A stretch of DNA of 36,765 bases from a virus. The position numbers were made by a program, and so were the translations under genes. Every line of letters starts with the position of its first letter. Position 1 is the first letter of the stretch. Of this stretch, positions 1-36,765 are shown piece by piece. Location of the stretch: the IMG/VR virus record IMGVR_UViG_3300046004_000428, positions 1 through 36,765 of that record; one strand, written 5' to 3'. The notes beneath the pieces are model-generated. The model was not told the origin of the DNA. It searched no databases and was given only the letters and a program-made list of their open reading frames with translations.

Positions 1-144
1 AGAAGCCGCCGTCAGTCGAAATACGTTGCTGTAGTTCGACACAAAGGAGAACGCTATTTCCTTGGCTATTTTGAAACTGCCGAGGAAGCGCACGACGCCT
101 ACATTGCCAAGAAGCGCGAAGTTAGCCCCACCTTTATGCTCTAA
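1..144 (+). CDS. HNH/AP2 endonuclease, 3' end (continues from 36283-36765)
   Basis: This is the C-terminal part of the HNH gene that begins at 36283. Bases 4-129 repeat the last 126 bases of the window in the same frame. The reading frame then continues through ACC TTT ATG CTC to a TAA stop at 142-144, so the full protein would be 165 residues. The segment encodes most of an AP2-like DNA-binding domain (KYVAVVRHKGERYFLGYF followed by an acidic helix). The first codon here is AGA (Arg), whereas the copy at the right end has GTC (Val), so the outermost three bases disagree. The stop lies two bases from the stop of the convergent tail gene at 147. Confidence 0.85.
   Translation, partial: RSRRQSKYVAVVRHKGERYFLGYFETAEEAHDAYIAKKREVSPTFML
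4..129. repeat. Terminal direct repeat, left copy (126 bp)
   Basis: Identical to 36640-36765. A gene reads in frame through the join, so this is most simply the overlap of a circular or circularly permuted genome rather than a physical terminal repeat. Bases 1-3 do not match the other end. Confidence 0.9.
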
Positions 145-152
145 CATTACAC
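144..152. repeat. 9-bp direct repeat ACATTACAC, left flank of HNH insertion
   Basis: ACATTACAC occurs here and at 36187-36195, immediately outside the HNH gene once the circle is closed. On the minus strand it reads GTGTAATGT. This copy holds the TAA stop of the upstream tail gene, and the other copy holds the ATG start of the downstream tail gene. It looks like a target duplication or recombination footprint, although chance similarity of start/stop sequences cannot be excluded. Confidence 0.6.
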
Positions 153-1070
153 TCGCTCCAACTGGGCAAACGTGACGCTGCCGGAAACGGTTAGCGTCAA
201 CGTCCCAGCGGTCGGCGTAAATGCGAGAGATACACGGTTGCCCGCACCAGTGCCGACAAGCGGTCCAGCGGTTGACGTGCCGGAAAGCGTAATTGTCCCC
301 GTTCCAGTAAATGACAGGACGTGCTGCACGTTGGCGACAGTTACGTTCTGCGTTGAAAGCGTGTCGGTGTTCAGAAGAAGGTTTCTGCGGCCAGTGATTG
401 GCACAATGCCATATGTTGGTCTGCTGGCCGTCGTTGACTGCAACGCGTGGTTGCCGGGGAGTTCGCGGACGGAGATAGAGTTTAGTTTGAACTGCCCAGT
501 GCCGCCGGAACTGTGGCCCACATTCAGATAACCAGACGTAAACCCGGCTGGCACATGAACATAACCTCTTAGGGTTCCGCTGTTCAGTGTTCCAACAAGC
601 GTTCCAATAAGAGTGGTGCCACCAGAACCAGCAGATAAAAAGAAGCGAAATGCCCCTTCGGTACAGCTAATGTTCTGCACATCCGCCGTAATTAGATAGG
701 ATTGCCCTGCTGTGAGCGCCATCAATGTGCTGCGGGTGACGTATTGGTTACTTGCAGTTTTCGTCACAAGCAGTCCAGCGCCATCCGTGGCAGCAGTTGA
801 GCTTGTTAGCGTGTAGTTTGCCGGGTCAGAGGAGAACGTCACCAACTCCGCCCCCAGCACCAGCCCCTTCGACTTATCCAGCATCAGCGCTGCGGTCTGG
901 CCCGGCGTCGTCAATGGGGTGGTGCCGGCGGTGTCGGTGAAGAGGGTCGTGAGGTCGCTGGGGTCGTACCAGACGCCCGGTTCGGCAAGGGCGAAGAGCG
1001 TGGAGGGGCTGAAGGCAGTCGCACTGCCACCGCGCCGCCGACGATTCAGAATGGCAAGCGGCATATTCAT
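147..1070 (-). CDS. Tail/receptor-binding structural protein, N-terminal half of a split gene
   Basis: A 307-residue beta-rich protein with low charge and many Thr, Ser and Gly. It has a basic N-terminus (residues 10-14), then WYDPSDLTTLF (about 34-44) and MLDKSKGLVLG (about 63-73), which are typical of alphaproteobacterial phage tail proteins. Repeated carbohydrate-binding-module-like beta-sandwich segments follow. The protein ends abruptly at VTFAQLERV. In relatives as I recall them, this sequence runs on into TAYQKVTNQFDVTEAG, which here is the start of the next minus-strand gene (36190-35591) across an inserted HNH gene. It probably forms part of the tail tip or a fibre that contacts the cell surface. 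The start was chosen four bases after the stop of the gene at 1075; an in-frame ATG at 1064 is also possible. Enzymatic activity is not evident. Confidence 0.7.
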   Translation of the reverse strand: MNMPLAILNRRRRGGSATAFSPSTLFALAEPGVWYDPSDLTTLFTDTAGTTPLTTPGQTAALMLDKSKGLVLGAELVTFSSDPANYTLTSSTAATDGAGLLVTKTASNQYVTRSTLMALTAGQSYLITADVQNISCTEGAFRFFLSAGSGGTTLIGTLVGTLNSGTLRGYVHVPAGFTSGYLNVGHSSGGTGQFKLNSISVRELPGNHALQSTTASRPTYGIVPITGRRNLLLNTDTLSTQNVTVANVQHVLSFTGTGTITLSGTSTAGPLVGTGAGNRVSLAFTPTAGTLTLTVSGSVTFAQLERV

Positions 1071-2332: not shown

Positions 2333-2890
2333 TCAGATGGAGCGCCATGTTCGGCGCAATTGGATTGCTTTGATGTGCTCTCTAGTCACGCCATACCTTG
2401 CCGCCAGCATACCACGACTTTCCGACGATGCTCTGATTTCAAGAACATCTTTTTCGGTAAGGCGAGAATTGCCTTTTGGTGCCCCATCTTCTCGGCCCCA
2501 CATGTCCGCAACATTGTCAGCCCGCGTCCCCAGCAGAAGATGGTTTGGGTTGCAGCATGAACGGTTGTGGCAAGTGTGCCGAACGACCAAGCCCTCGGGG
2601 ATGGGTCCGCGCTTAGTAAGCCACGCGGCCCTATTTGACGTGGTTTTTGGCCCTTTTGCGCCACCCAGAGAAATACTGCCGTAGCCGTAAGTCCATGAGT
2701 TTCCGATCCAAGGCCAGCACTCATTTTCTGTGCGCACGTCAACATAGAACCAAAAGCGGTCTGCAAAAGGCTTTCTTGCTTTTGGTCCATCGTCCGTTGT
2801 CCCAGTCGTTCGAAGTCGGTTGTAGTGCCTAGAGCAAAGCGCGCCAGAATGTAGTTTCCCGCCGCACCCAGTTATCTCACAAGTTTCCAT
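2333..2890 (-). CDS. HNH homing endonuclease with zinc knuckle and C-terminal HTH
   Basis: A 185-residue protein. The N-terminus has C4, C9, C19 and H22, a likely zinc knuckle. The HNH core runs from about 85 to 130, with H105, C107, H108, C112, C113, N116 and H117 in HTCHNRSCCNPNHLLLGTR. The C-terminal 40 residues (LTEKDVLEIR, MLAARYGVTREHI) form a helix-turn-helix that would supply DNA-site recognition. The gene sits between the capsid and decoration genes in the same orientation. Its AGGAG is enclosed in an 11-bp inverted repeat (2894-2933), so read-through mRNA should be poorly translated. CCATGTTC occurs at both ends of the gene (2345-2352 and 2887-2894). The protein probably nicks or cuts genomes lacking the insertion. 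It is unlike the three AP2-type HNH genes elsewhere in the window. Confidence 0.85.
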   Translation of the reverse strand: METCEITGCGGKLHSGALCSRHYNRLRTTGTTDDGPKARKPFADRFWFYVDVRTENECWPWIGNSWTYGYGSISLGGAKGPKTTSNRAAWLTKRGPIPEGLVVRHTCHNRSCCNPNHLLLGTRADNVADMWGREDGAPKGNSRLTEKDVLEIRASSESRGMLAARYGVTREHIKAIQLRRTWRSI

Positions 2891-18475: not shown

Positions 18476-18505
18476 TGATCAACGCGACCTATGTGGAGGC
18501 CTCGC

Positions 18506-19072
18506 ATGACTAAAGACAACTTACCGCCTGTAGATTTTTTGCGCAAGATTCTGCGGTATGACGCGGAAACAGGAATACTATATTGGCGCGAAAGGCCGCA
18601 AGACACGTTCCGATCCGGAACCCAAAGCGCAGAACACATTTCCAAAAGATGGAATAAAAAGTGCGCCGGAACGCCAGCCGGTACAATATACAAAACAGGA
18701 TATGTTAGGATACAGTGGAGAGCGACGGGCGTCAAAAGCCACTTAGCGTCGCACCGCGTAGCATGGGCGATCTACCATGGCAGGATACCCGCATGCGAAA
18801 TAGACCACATAAACGGAAATCGCGCGGATAACCGTATTGCAAATCTGCGTGAAGTCACAAGAGCCCAAAACAACAAGAACAAAAAGAAAAGCAAAGACAA
18901 TACCTCCGGCGCGACTGGAATTTATTTGACCCTCAAAGGTAAATTTAGGGCAATTATCAAATCTGGAGGGGTAAACATTAACCTTGGCACATTTTCCAAC
19001 AGATTTGACGCCATTCTCGCCCGGCTGTTAGCGGAAAAAAAATACGGATACACCATGCGTCATGGGCTGTAG
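18506..19072 (+). CDS. HNH/AP2 homing endonuclease
   Basis: A 188-residue protein. Helices at 10-20 (FLRKILRYDAETGILYW) lead into the HNH core, with H83 (SHRVAWAIY) and H101 (EIDHINGNRADNRIANLR). The AP2-like DNA-binding domain is at about 134-178 (TSGATGIYLTLKGKFRAI, ending with ILARLLAEKKYG). The ATG at 18506 has GGAGG seven bases upstream; the frame opens at 18491. It lies on the opposite strand to the late operon between terminase and the 146-residue gene, and its stop directly abuts the terminase stop (19072/19073). Base use is more AT-rich than the flanking genes, which suggests recent arrival. It closely resembles the HNH protein at 29562 (shared EH..WN.K.AGT segment), so the two may be paralogues. 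Confidence 0.9.
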   Translation: MTKDNLPPVDFLRKILRYDAETGILYWRERPQDTFRSGTQSAEHISKRWNKKCAGTPAGTIYKTGYVRIQWRATGVKSHLASHRVAWAIYHGRIPACEIDHINGNRADNRIANLREVTRAQNNKNKKKSKDNTSGATGIYLTLKGKFRAIIKSGGVNINLGTFSNRFDAILARLLAEKKYGYTMRHGL

Positions 19073-29295: not shown

Positions 29296-29565
29296 TTAGG
29301 ACTGTTCCGTCGCAATCTCGCCGCCGCAGGCCAGATATCCGCAGCCGTCCACCCACGAGTCGAGGTGTGCCGGGTTGGCCTTGATGCGGGCCAGCTTGAA
29401 CAGCGTCATCATGATGGACACGTCAACGGCGGTGACGGGATGGTCGAGGTGGGCGCTCCAATACAGCGACACCATGGAAAAATTCCGTTCGGCATCTCCG
29501 TGAGTGGCAGCCCTGTCCACCGTGACGTACTGCTTAGCCGTGTCAAGAATATCTCCGCGCTTCAT
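29296..29565 (-). CDS. DUF6378-like phage protein
   Basis: An 89-residue protein with KRGDILDTAKQYVTVDR, THGDAERNFSMVSLYWSAHL and SWVDGCGYLACGGE, the conserved layout of DUF6378. The family is common in phages of many hosts, and its D/H/E-rich helical core resembles MazG-like nucleotide pyrophosphohydrolases, but activity is not established here. The start overlaps the HNH gene stop as ATGA. The first eight bases of the gene (ATGAAGCG) are the same as the first eight of the HNH gene. It may form one operon with the HTH gene at 30119. Confidence 0.75.
   Translation of the reverse strand: MKRGDILDTAKQYVTVDRAATHGDAERNFSMVSLYWSAHLDHPVTAVDVSIMMTLFKLARIKANPAHLDSWVDGCGYLACGGEIATEQS
29558..29565. 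repeat. 8-bp direct repeat CGCTTCAT flanking HNH gene (other copy 30115-30122)
   Basis: CGCTTCAT (minus strand ATGAAGCG) occurs at the start codon of the DUF6378 gene and at that of the HNH gene. Removing the segment between the copies would join the HTH gene stop to the DUF6378 start by an ATGA overlap. Short enough to be chance, but similar in kind to the 9-bp repeat around the other HNH gene. Confidence 0.45.
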
Positions 29566-30122
29566 TGCACTCTCCCATGGTTGATATGAAAGTTGTTAGA
29601 TACTGATGCCGAAAGACGAGCGGCTATTGCATCATCTTTATTGGAAAACACTCCAAAATATTTAGTTTTGCCGTTTACTTGTATTTTTGCTTCCCATTTT
29701 TCTAAAGCCTTGTTCCAAGTTACGCCAACAGTCCCACTGGTGTTGTTTTTTGCCAACTTCATGTTCCGTTGGTTTAATGCCCTTGGAACATCTCTCAAAT
29801 TGTTAATGCGGTTATCTGATCTAACACCATTTATGTGATCAATGAAATTGCTTGGCCAATCTCCATAATAAATTGCCCAAGCCGCTCTGTGCGCCCGTAT
29901 TTTTATTTCAAAGATGGACAAACGGACATACCCTTGCCCATCTTGCGTATCAGCAAGCGTTCCAGCGTATTTTGCATTCCAAATGGCGCATAGATGCTCT
30001 GGCGACTTGCTGCCACCATCAAAAACTTCCGGCCTTCTTGCGCTCCACGTCAAAACTCCTGTTTCCGGGGCGTATGACAGAAGATCGCGCAAAACCTTTG
30101 GTGTTATCTGATCCCGCTTCAT
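29562..30122 (-). CDS. HNH/AP2 homing endonuclease
   Basis: A 186-residue protein. The N-terminal helix (KVLRDLLSYAPETGVLTW) precedes the HNH core, with H78 (AHRAAWAIY) and H96 (FIDHINGVRSDNRINNLR). The C-terminal AP2-like domain spans about 129-172 (SGTVGVTWNKALEKWEAK, then KTKYFGVFSNKDDA). The ATG at 30122 overlaps the HTH gene stop as ATGA, and the gene ends with ATGA into DUF6378, so it is inserted with both couplings intact. The base composition is markedly more AT-rich than its neighbours, which suggests recent transfer. It is most similar within the window to the HNH protein at 18506. It would cut genomes lacking the insertion near its site. Confidence 0.9.
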   Translation of the reverse strand: MKRDQITPKVLRDLLSYAPETGVLTWSARRPEVFDGGSKSPEHLCAIWNAKYAGTLADTQDGQGYVRLSIFEIKIRAHRAAWAIYYGDWPSNFIDHINGVRSDNRINNLRDVPRALNQRNMKLAKNNTSGTVGVTWNKALEKWEAKIQVNGKTKYFGVFSNKDDAIAARLSASVSNNFHINHGRVQ

Positions 30123-30325
30123 AATTTTCCCCACGCGCTGGCTTCGCGGATGTTAATGTTGTCGACGATGTCGGCCAGGCGGTTGCGGCAAACGGCGTTA
30201 GGAATGGCGTGACCGTTCATCCAAGCCGACATGGTGTTTGGCGTCACGGGGACCTGGGCGGCGATCCAGGAGAATTTCCGGCCACCCTCCTTCGCCCATG
30301 ATTTGATCAGGTCTTGCGCCTGCAT
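30119..30325 (-). CDS. Cro/CI-like HTH regulator
   Basis: A 68-residue protein with an XRE-type helix-turn-helix: DLIKSWAKEGGRKFSWIAAQ, VPVTPNTMSAWMNGHAIPN (the recognition helix follows the turn), then RNRLADIVDNINI. The size and fold fit a Cro-like repressor. It faces the divergent early operon at 30457, and the region between holds two dyads that could be its operators. AAAGGAG precedes the ATG. Without an integrase in the window, its job may be early-to-late switching rather than lysogeny. Confidence 0.75.
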   Translation of the reverse strand: MQAQDLIKSWAKEGGRKFSWIAAQVPVTPNTMSAWMNGHAIPNAVCRNRLADIVDNINIREASAWGKL

Positions 30326-35224: not shown

Positions 35225-35594
35225 CGGGCTGCACCGCCGTCAGCCCCATCGCCTGCAACGCCGCCACCCCATCCATCCCGCCAATCGCCGTCAGCACCCC
35301 CGGCACCGCCAGCACCGGCTCCGTGCTGAACACCAGCGCCGCCTGCGCGCGTCCAGCCGCCACCATGTCGATGATGCTGTCCACGTCCCATGCGGGCCTG
35401 ACGAGGGGCTGTGACGCGGCTGCGACCCACTCCTCGCGGGCTTCCCATGACGCGGCGGCGTACAGATTGCCGTCAGCATCGGTCCAGTTCAGGCCGGTGT
35501 AGGTTTCGCCGTCTGCGGGGGAGAAGGCCAAGCACATAGCCAACTGATTGGCATCGCTTACGAGGGCTTCGGGTGAGGCTGCGGTGATCCTCAT
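35211..35594 (-). CDS. Conserved tail-region protein
   Basis: A 127-residue protein starting MRITAASPEALVSDANQLAM, which overlaps the preceding gene as ATGA; the longer frame to 35624 is an antiframe. It contains TYTGLNWTDADGNLYAAASW and a Trp/Pro-containing helix (LVRPAWDVDSIIDMVAAGRA). The sequence type occurs next to tail fibre genes in Rhodobacterales-type phages and prophages, and I know no function. It may be a tail assembly factor or a minor tip protein. Confidence 0.65.
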   Translation of the reverse strand: MRITAASPEALVSDANQLAMCLAFSPADGETYTGLNWTDADGNLYAAASWEAREEWVAAASQPLVRPAWDVDSIIDMVAAGRAQAALVFSTEPVLAVPGVLTAIGGMDGVAALQAMGLTAVQPDETP

Positions 35595-36190
35595 GTGTAG
35601 GCTCCGGTTCTGGCGTTGACCCAAGTCTCGGTGTTCGTGATTGCGGTGGTGTCGAGGTTGGCCCCGAAGCGGGTGATGAGGCTGTAGATTTGGCCATTTA
35701 GGGGCAGTGTCGTGCCGCCACGGCGTCCGAGATAGAGCGGATAGGCTAGGAAGTTGCCGGTGCCTTGGTCTGTTGTGGATGTAGCAACCTGTGCGCCATT
35801 GATGCGGAGCGTTGTAGTGTCTCCTGCGATGTCGCCAATGCCTGTGAGAACATTGGTGACTGGCGATGAATAACCAGAAGCAATAACCGATACGCTTGTT
35901 GTACCACCAGAGCCAAACGCATAATTGTTTAGCGCGACTGATGGCGCAAAAACGACAAATGTGCCGGGGTTTGACGAAATGGCACTAAGCTCCAAAAGAA
36001 CGGTTCTTGCCGTATCACTCAGCTTCCTCACCCCCGCAAACACCTGCGCCTTATCCACCCCCGGCGTGATCGTGCCGGTGACCATGAAGTCATCAACCCC
36101 ATCAAACGCGAGATACGACAGCGACTGCACCCCGGCTTCGGTCACGTCGAATTGGTTCGTAACCTTTTGATATGCTGTTGGTTGCGACAT
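35591..36190 (-). CDS. Tail/receptor-binding structural protein, C-terminal half of a split gene
   Basis: A 199-residue protein. From residue 5 it has TAYQKVTNQFDVTEAGVQSL, SYLAFDGVDDFMVTGTITPG, KAQVFAGVRKL and ending FGANLDTTAITNTETWVNAR. This is the concanavalin/LamG-like C-terminal part of a tail protein whose N-terminal part is typified by WYDPSDLTTLF and MLDKSKGLVLG. Here that N-terminal part is a separate gene (147-1070), and an HNH gene lies between. GGAGGT six bases before this ATG lies in the sequence next to the HNH insertion, so the half-gene has its own ribosome binding site. The two parts may assemble after translation. Confidence 0.75.
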   Translation of the reverse strand: MSQPTAYQKVTNQFDVTEAGVQSLSYLAFDGVDDFMVTGTITPGVDKAQVFAGVRKLSDTARTVLLELSAISSNPGTFVVFAPSVALNNYAFGSGGTTSVSVIASGYSSPVTNVLTGIGDIAGDTTTLRINGAQVATSTTDQGTGNFLAYPLYLGRRGGTTLPLNGQIYSLITRFGANLDTTAITNTETWVNARTGAYT

Positions 36191-36195
36191 TACAC
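36187..36195. repeat. 9-bp direct repeat ACATTACAC, right flank of HNH insertion
   Basis: The second copy of ACATTACAC (see 144-152). It includes the ATG of the C-terminal tail half-gene. With the circle closed, the two copies enclose 584 bases holding only the HNH gene and its leader. Confidence 0.6.
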
Positions 36196-36282
36196 GACCT
36201 CCATTATATTAAGGCGGGGAAAGGTGCATTTGTCCGATGCTCCAATCCCCTTACCAATCCACCGCTGAACAGGAGCGATGAT

Positions 36283-36765
36283 ATGGCTGCATTGAAGAAT
36301 ACACTTTCGCAGGAGCGCTTGAAAGAACTCCTGCACTATGACGCCGAAACCGGGGTTTTTACTTGGCTCCAGCGCAGAGGCGGGTCGCTTAAGGGCGATA
36401 AAGCCGGGAACCTTAACGTAACCGGCTACATCCACATTTACGTTGACGGGAGCCCATACAAGGCCCATCGCCTTGCTTGGCTGTATGAGGCAGGCGAGTT
36501 TCCTCCGGGCTTTATTGACCACATCAACGGCGTGAGGGACGACAACAGGCTGTGCAATCTGCGCCCCGTCACAAACCAAGAAAACGTCTGCAACATCAGA
36601 GGCGTTCGGTCTGACAGCAAAACGGGGATTTTGGGCGTCAGCCGCCGTCAGTCGAAATACGTTGCTGTAGTTCGACACAAAGGAGAACGCTATTTCCTTG
36701 GCTATTTTGAAACTGCCGAGGAAGCGCACGACGCCTACATTGCCAAGAAGCGCGAAGTTAGCCCC
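36283..36765 (+). CDS. HNH/AP2 homing endonuclease (5' part; continues at 130-144)
   Basis: The full protein of 165 residues is read across the contig join. The start helix LKELLHYDAETGVFTWL (about 14-30) leads to the HNH core, with H62 (AHRLAWLYEAG) and H80 (FIDHINGVRDDNRLCNLRPV). The AP2-like domain spans about 114-156 (TGILGVSRRQSKYVAVVRHK). AGGAG lies seven bases before the ATG at 36283. The gene runs opposite to the late operon between the two halves of a tail protein. The 87-base leader (36196-36282) supplies the GGAGGT of the downstream tail half on the other strand. The similar HNH/AP2 genes at 18506 and 29562 carry an extra segment before the HNH core that this one lacks. Confidence 0.9.
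   Translation, partial: MAALKNTLSQERLKELLHYDAETGVFTWLQRRGGSLKGDKAGNLNVTGYIHIYVDGSPYKAHRLAWLYEAGEFPPGFIDHINGVRDDNRLCNLRPVTNQENVCNIRGVRSDSKTGILGVSRRQSKYVAVVRHKGERYFLGYFETAEEAHDAYIAKKREVSP
36640..36765. repeat. Terminal direct repeat, right copy (126 bp)
   Basis: Identical to 4-129. Closing the repeats gives a circle of 36,636 bp in which the HNH gene is intact. Confidence 0.9.

Follow-up and report, generated by a model that had tools for sequence, protein, structure and literature searches.

In order to establish whether two ORFs at opposite ends of a viral contig are parts of one gene, divided by an HNH endonuclease gene on the other strand, we examined the window, i.e. the whole 36,765 bp of IMG/VR virus record IMGVR_UViG_3300046004_000428, from an uncultured bacterial virus. 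The initial annotation had proposed that, once the contig ends are joined, a tail gene is seen to be split in this manner, with a 9-bp repeat flanking the insert and a new ribosome-binding site at its edge. Both ORFs (hereafter the N-part and the C-part) were recovered with the coordinates, lengths, QLERV end and MSQPTAYQKVTNQFDV start ascribed to them, as were the two repeat copies, the 584 bases that separate them, the stop codon in the left copy and the start codon in the right copy (Table 1).

Table 1. Features of the split locus, and HNH genes elsewhere in the window
Feature	Position	Strand	Description
C-terminal end of split-gene HNH gene, past the join	4-144	+	126-bp exact overlap; continues at 130-144; stop TAA 142-144
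Left copy of 9-bp direct repeat ACATTACAC	144-152	+	Holds N-part stop (TAA, 147-149); HNH frame ends on its first base
N-part of split fibre/spike gene	147-1070	-	307 aa, ends QLERV; ORF, homologues in one ORF with C-part
Second HNH gene	2333-2890	-	Between major head protein and g1878
HNH paralogue	18491-19072	+	39% identical to split-gene HNH; antisense, abuts terminase gene end
HNH paralogue	29562-30134	-	33% identical to split-gene HNH
C-part of split gene	35591-36190	-	199 aa, starts MSQPTAYQKVTNQFDV (MSQPTAYQKV); most of LamG/ConA-like lectin domain
Right copy of 9-bp direct repeat ACATTACAC	36187-36195	+	Holds C-part start codon (CAT, 36188-36190)
Ribosome-binding site GGAGGT	36197-36202	-	6 nt before C-part ATG, insert side of repeat
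HNH gene leader	36215-36282	+	Hairpin GGGG...CCCC, then AGGAG (36271-36275), then ATG
HNH/AP2-like endonuclease gene, first 161 codons	36283-36765	+	PF13392 E 2.5e-15; phrog_99 E 1.9e-62

Self-comparison of the contig revealed that its two ends share 126 identical bases (4-129 = 36640-36765) and that this overlap falls inside the HNH gene, which is complete when the ends are joined, running from the ATG at 36283 to its TAA and specifying 165 aa antisense to the split gene. Each contig end bears HNH sequence beside a complementary piece of one fibre gene. Furthermore, the left-end and right-end genes of the window are contiguous through the fibre gene in linear contigs of relatives (L041, L125, L010 and L005); in L041 and L125, which are 100% identical to the window for the scaffold, 98% for the major head protein and 97% for g1075, the order g1075 - fibre - g2 - exonuclease is unbroken. 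The join is supported, at the level of sequence, both by this gene order and by the content of the two ends. It is very improbable that the ends were wrongly joined, with two different HNH copies sharing 126 bp and the fibre gene intact or located elsewhere. Such an error would fit an overlap that is just 126 bp long, lies within an HNH gene and has three discordant end bases, as well as a 39-base stretch spanning the left HNH/fibre edge that is matched in no other record (0 exact matches in viral contigs). Against it stand the complementary fibre pieces and HNH sequence at both ends, the fibre gene contiguous between the same flanking genes in linear contigs of relatives, the full-length HNH gene obtained upon joining, and a genome size in line with that of relatives (36-38 kb). 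The discordant bases are AGA at window positions 1-3, where GTC is found at 36637-36639 before the next 126 bases agree; they represent either an assembly tip or variation within the HNH gene. A megablast search of GenBank with window positions 1-25000 returned no near-identical phages. As a separate observation, contig IMGVR_UViG_3300012667_000578 (L009 and L011), from a phage of the same group, also starts and ends within the same fibre gene; assemblies therefore tend to break there.

The gene lying between the two parts was described initially as an HNH/AP2 gene, alone in the insert and on the opposite strand. Its antisense orientation, its place as the only gene there and its HNH domain were borne out (HNH_3, PF13392, 56.3 bits versus a cut-off of 24.8, E 2.5e-15); the AP2 assignment was sub-threshold, scoring 17.7 bits under a Pfam cut-off of 33.3. 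A DNA search of phages and plasmids with the insert returned nothing beyond short matches to HNH-coding sequence, and the HNH leader had no meaningful match there. A fibre gene of this family was found beside none of the 83 closest HNH loci, and any target preference is thus putative. Over the leader hairpin, ribosome-binding site and start (36215-36290, +) we noted a match to RF00043, the R1162 plasmid antisense RNA family, at 35.3 bits; as this is below the gathering score of 55, it was taken as a hairpin-plus-RBS look-alike. With a second HNH gene and two further paralogues (Table 1), there are thus four HNH genes in a genome of 36.6 kb. The second of these carries a strong hairpin at 2850-2950 (CTAACTCCTGA...TCAGGAGTTAG; z -5.1, 0/200 shuffles as stable) that covers its own ribosome-binding site, an arrangement like that of the regulated endonuclease genes of T4-type phages.

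The two parts were next compared with their homologues, which were gathered from viral and bacterial contigs with tblastn and profile scans; 80 distinct relatives cover the start of the C-part, and a gene was called intact when its reading frame stayed open through the junction for 30 residues or more. By this measure 79 of the 80 have one ORF over the junction, the other one runs off its contig, and none is split, which agrees with the earlier claim that the two parts are usually one protein. L039 and L036, the closest for the middle region and C-part, are 65% identical across residues 206-504, in a single alignment that is ungapped at the junction; the C-part of the nearest relative is 69% identical. 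Where relatives read QLELGSTATAYQRV, the window reads QLERV, a stop and then M-SQPTAYQKV, and the spacing is equal between QLELGSTATAYQ of the nearest relatives and QLERV-stop/M-SQPTAYQ of the window. Exactly five residues separate QLE from [T]xYQ in 51 relatives, matching QLE-RVSQP-TAYQ. The 'QLER' start is likewise present in intact L095 and L096, and one intact relative has QLERQPAVTAYQ. The C-part retains all 35 columns of 90% conservation, which places it top of 81 sequences; it appears to show no decay, weak evidence given that a young insertion would look alike. Neither the same insertion nor a near-identical empty fibre allele was found among the relatives.

At the edges of the insert, the signals are consistent with a new start of translation: GGAGGT is a strong Shine-Dalgarno sequence 6 nt from the C-part ATG and would restart translation there, as initially suggested. 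The repeat ACATTACAC is absent elsewhere in the genome on both strands. Direct repeats of 9 bp at a spacing of 560-630 bp are not rare (50 pairs genome-wide); repeats at both edges of a given segment, allowing 12 bp of slack, are expected by chance at ~0.002. Excision of the segment with one repeat copy gives GTGTAATGTCG; this contains the predicted TAATG, but with an in-frame stop and a shifted frame, and a single reading frame is not restored. For an intact ancestor reading GAG CGA GTG TCG CAA, the 598 bases that now separate GTG from TCG must all be insert, carrying TAATG at each end; therefore either part of the repeat came in with the insert, or the ancestor was already in two pieces. If the repeat is read as a target duplication, the empty site was already TAATG, which counts against insertion into an intact gene. 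The junction is not among the best-conserved DNA of the gene, its windows ranking 48 to 126 of 199. At the right edge, GGTCGTG/TCGCAA resembles AAGGTCGTGTCGCAA in L095, a likeness upon which we do not build.

An ancestor in which two separate genes already overlapped as TAATG, and into whose junction the HNH gene came later with a 9-bp target duplication, would explain the precise repeat at both edges and the TAATG left by its removal. HNH genes do occupy intergenic junctions: genes of other types lie directly downstream of the fibre gene, after the C-part, in at least six relatives (L002, L004, L082, L097, L108 and L124), and the region is therefore a repeated landing zone. Nevertheless, we consider a pre-split ancestor improbable. 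Homologues that lack an HNH gene and encode the parts separately were looked for among the 80 relatives, and the two-gene alternative raised in the initial annotation found no example there. In addition, five relatives have an empty site, of ~15 bases, at the position of the second HNH gene; compared with these, that insertion put a stop and an RBS of its own in place of GTAAGGAGG... and left no target duplication, and such signals at the fibre gene need not be ancestral. Given the lack of any split relative and the similar behaviour of the genome's second HNH insertion, we prefer a repeat that is partly insert-borne. It is more improbable still that the insert forms a self-splicing intron bearing the endonuclease gene in antisense, whose splicing restores one protein. 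HNH genes are known to interrupt phage structural genes within introns, as in the tape measure gene of ICP1 (PMC10448857). Here, however, HNH coding sequence leaves few bases on one side and ~90 on the other, so that there is no room for a core; the leader is too short for that of a group I or II intron. A new RBS and ATG at the edge would, moreover, serve no purpose. Rfam found no family at gathering score over the window, and a permissive scan of 36100-36765 found no intron at gathering score or E<=10; with no group I or II catalytic core found, an intron appears unlikely.

In order to place the junction within the protein, the parts were considered in terms of domains and fold. The N-part begins with a hydrophobic peptide (MNMPLAILNRRRRGG), followed by a WYDPSD segment, which is the first part of a lectin fold, a long middle region, and at its end an RNLL...FAQLE module that is carbohydrate-binding-like. 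Laminin_G_3 was sub-threshold in the C-part (23 versus 27.6 bits, E 9.6e-5), and this family is matched by 14 of 25 intact relatives. In an AlphaFold model of intact L039, confident blocks at residues 21-90 and about 190-371 flank the weaker module, and the junction (residues 169-174) lies at the start of a low-confidence linker (171-180). Structure comparison aligned 196 residues of 5hon_A, a single lectin domain of 206 residues, over 23-362 of the model (Z 17.5), and 222 of 269 residues of the cyanopodophage Pan3 tailspike (Z 17.1); the comparison prints first and last aligned residues only, and the share of the N-terminal block is read from ranges and aligned lengths. The nested module is absent in seven relatives, where WYDPSD runs straight into the C-part. 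Because 5hon_A spans both blocks and these relatives do without the module, the N-terminal segment and the C-part most likely form one sandwich with the RNLL...QLE module nested in it. As the cut falls in the linker after the nested module, the strands of one predicted lectin sandwich are therefore divided between two chains. A model of the single-domain relative L007 was poor (pLDDT 44) and was not used.

The initial annotation spoke of a tail protein. A virion fibre or spike is upheld, whilst 'tail' is uncertain: the gene sits just downstream of the head genes, and the only PDB sequence hit by the family profile is that of the RcGTA head-spike fibre Rcc01080 (residues 83-277, E 2.4e-17), over the nested module alone. 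The RcGTA fibre is held by a short N-terminal alternating-leucine peptide in a base pentamer and mediates capsule binding (PMC7296036); N-terminal peptides of several relatives (MFIGIGLNL, MPSIALPVSL) resemble it. The profile of g1075, a small beta-rich protein in the right place beside the fibre, gave no PDB match to the RcGTA spike base protein. As such, we regard the product as a carbohydrate-binding protein that may be either a head spike or a tail fibre. The gene is, by its sequence, a modular receptor-binding gene, as seen from module copy number: RNLL...QLELGS copies vary between 0, 1 and 2 among relatives, with tandem duplicates in some (fibre genes of L002, L005, L041 and L046 were looked at).

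These data point to the probable insertion of an antisense, free-standing HNH gene into an intact spike or fibre gene, which is now read as two polypeptides of 307 and 199 aa. A homing-type HNH gene with its own leader would have entered the linker after the RNLL...QLE module, following the codons for 'RV' and preceding those for 'SQP', and would have provided the upstream part with a stop, and the downstream part with a Shine-Dalgarno sequence and ATG. We infer both the insertion event itself and the expression of the two halves, with both chains presumably made from the same operon. The HNH gene is presumed selfish, and its insertion may have been tolerated because the break fell in a linker and because it carried a stop, RBS and start for its neighbours. 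The anchor at the N-terminus would stay with the N-chain, together with the opening lectin segment and the nested module, and the remainder of the lectin would fall to the C-chain. The lectin could work only if these chains pair, a step to which we give slightly less than an even chance; since both the N-terminal part and the C-part contribute to the beta-sandwich, the halves would reassemble through fragment complementation, the N-part alone being anchored to the particle. We therefore put forward only tentatively the full reading of a virion receptor-binding lectin that works split, its beta-sandwich completed on the particle between two chains, one of them anchored, after an antisense homing-endonuclease insertion. 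The 'two co-assembling halves' of the initial annotation are in this sense a specific hypothesis. It is unlikely, although less so than a pre-split ancestor, that the insertion simply broke the gene, leaving an N-part that anchors and binds via its module and a C-part that is unused or translated only to keep the coupled g2 expressed. In favour of this, the nested module could plausibly bind by itself, the C-part is without the first strands and without an anchor, and its stop codon overlaps the start of g2, the gene that follows (ATGA); conversely, the strongly conserved positions of the C-part are kept in an open frame behind a strong RBS, with the same weakness that a recent insertion looks alike.

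Splitting of a gene by an endonuclease is a rare but recognised event, which here probably hit a surface-binding protein and not an enzyme. To our knowledge, the endonuclease-split phage genes already described encode replication and nucleotide enzymes that reassemble. In full-text searches of the literature, no tail or spike gene was reported as split by endonuclease insertion, which is weak evidence of absence. Judged from sequence, the locus has the features of genes in pieces: homologues are continuous (79/80), a homing-family endonuclease lies between the halves, and no intron or intein restores the chain. If one lectin fold is indeed split, one of the fastest-evolving parts of the virion can also withstand this kind of accident, and the locus would provide a natural split lectin for studying fragment complementation. 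Gene 60 of T4 is linked with translational bypass, of which, unlike in T4, nothing was seen at the split fibre gene. The original account of Aeromonas phage Aeh1 nrdA/mobE is reportedly that of Friedrich et al. in 2007.

RcGTA Rcc01080 (PDB 6tb9; PMC7296036) shares with our fibre an RNLL...GAQLE module, a short hydrophobic N-terminal peptide and an adjoining gene for a small beta-rich protein; it is, however, one chain where the fibre here is predicted to be two, and g1075 is without a detectable sequence match to the spike base. The tape measure and terminase genes of ICP1 (PMC10448857) resemble the present case in having an HNH gene within a phage structural gene, but their transcripts are spliced from HEG-bearing introns, whereas no intron is detectable in the split fibre gene. 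At Aeh1 nrdA/mobE and T4 gene 60/mobA, one coding region is described as divided by an insertion so that it yields two polypeptides; for Aeh1, these have been shown to be fully active (PMC2988022; see also PMC3653736 for Aeh1). In T4 this made two subunits of the topoisomerase large subunit (gene 60/39) from one gene, again by endonuclease insertion (PMC2988022), although the product is an enzyme and the gene split here specifies a surface-binding protein. The closest parallel in arrangement is with Aeh1: both have a free-standing HNH gene, no intron, two translated regions and related phages with one gene, here judged from sequence alone. They differ in that the Aeh1 protein is an enzyme whose reassembled halves are demonstrably active, whilst the product here is a predicted virion lectin, and in that the HNH gene of our virus lies antisense to the gene that it splits.
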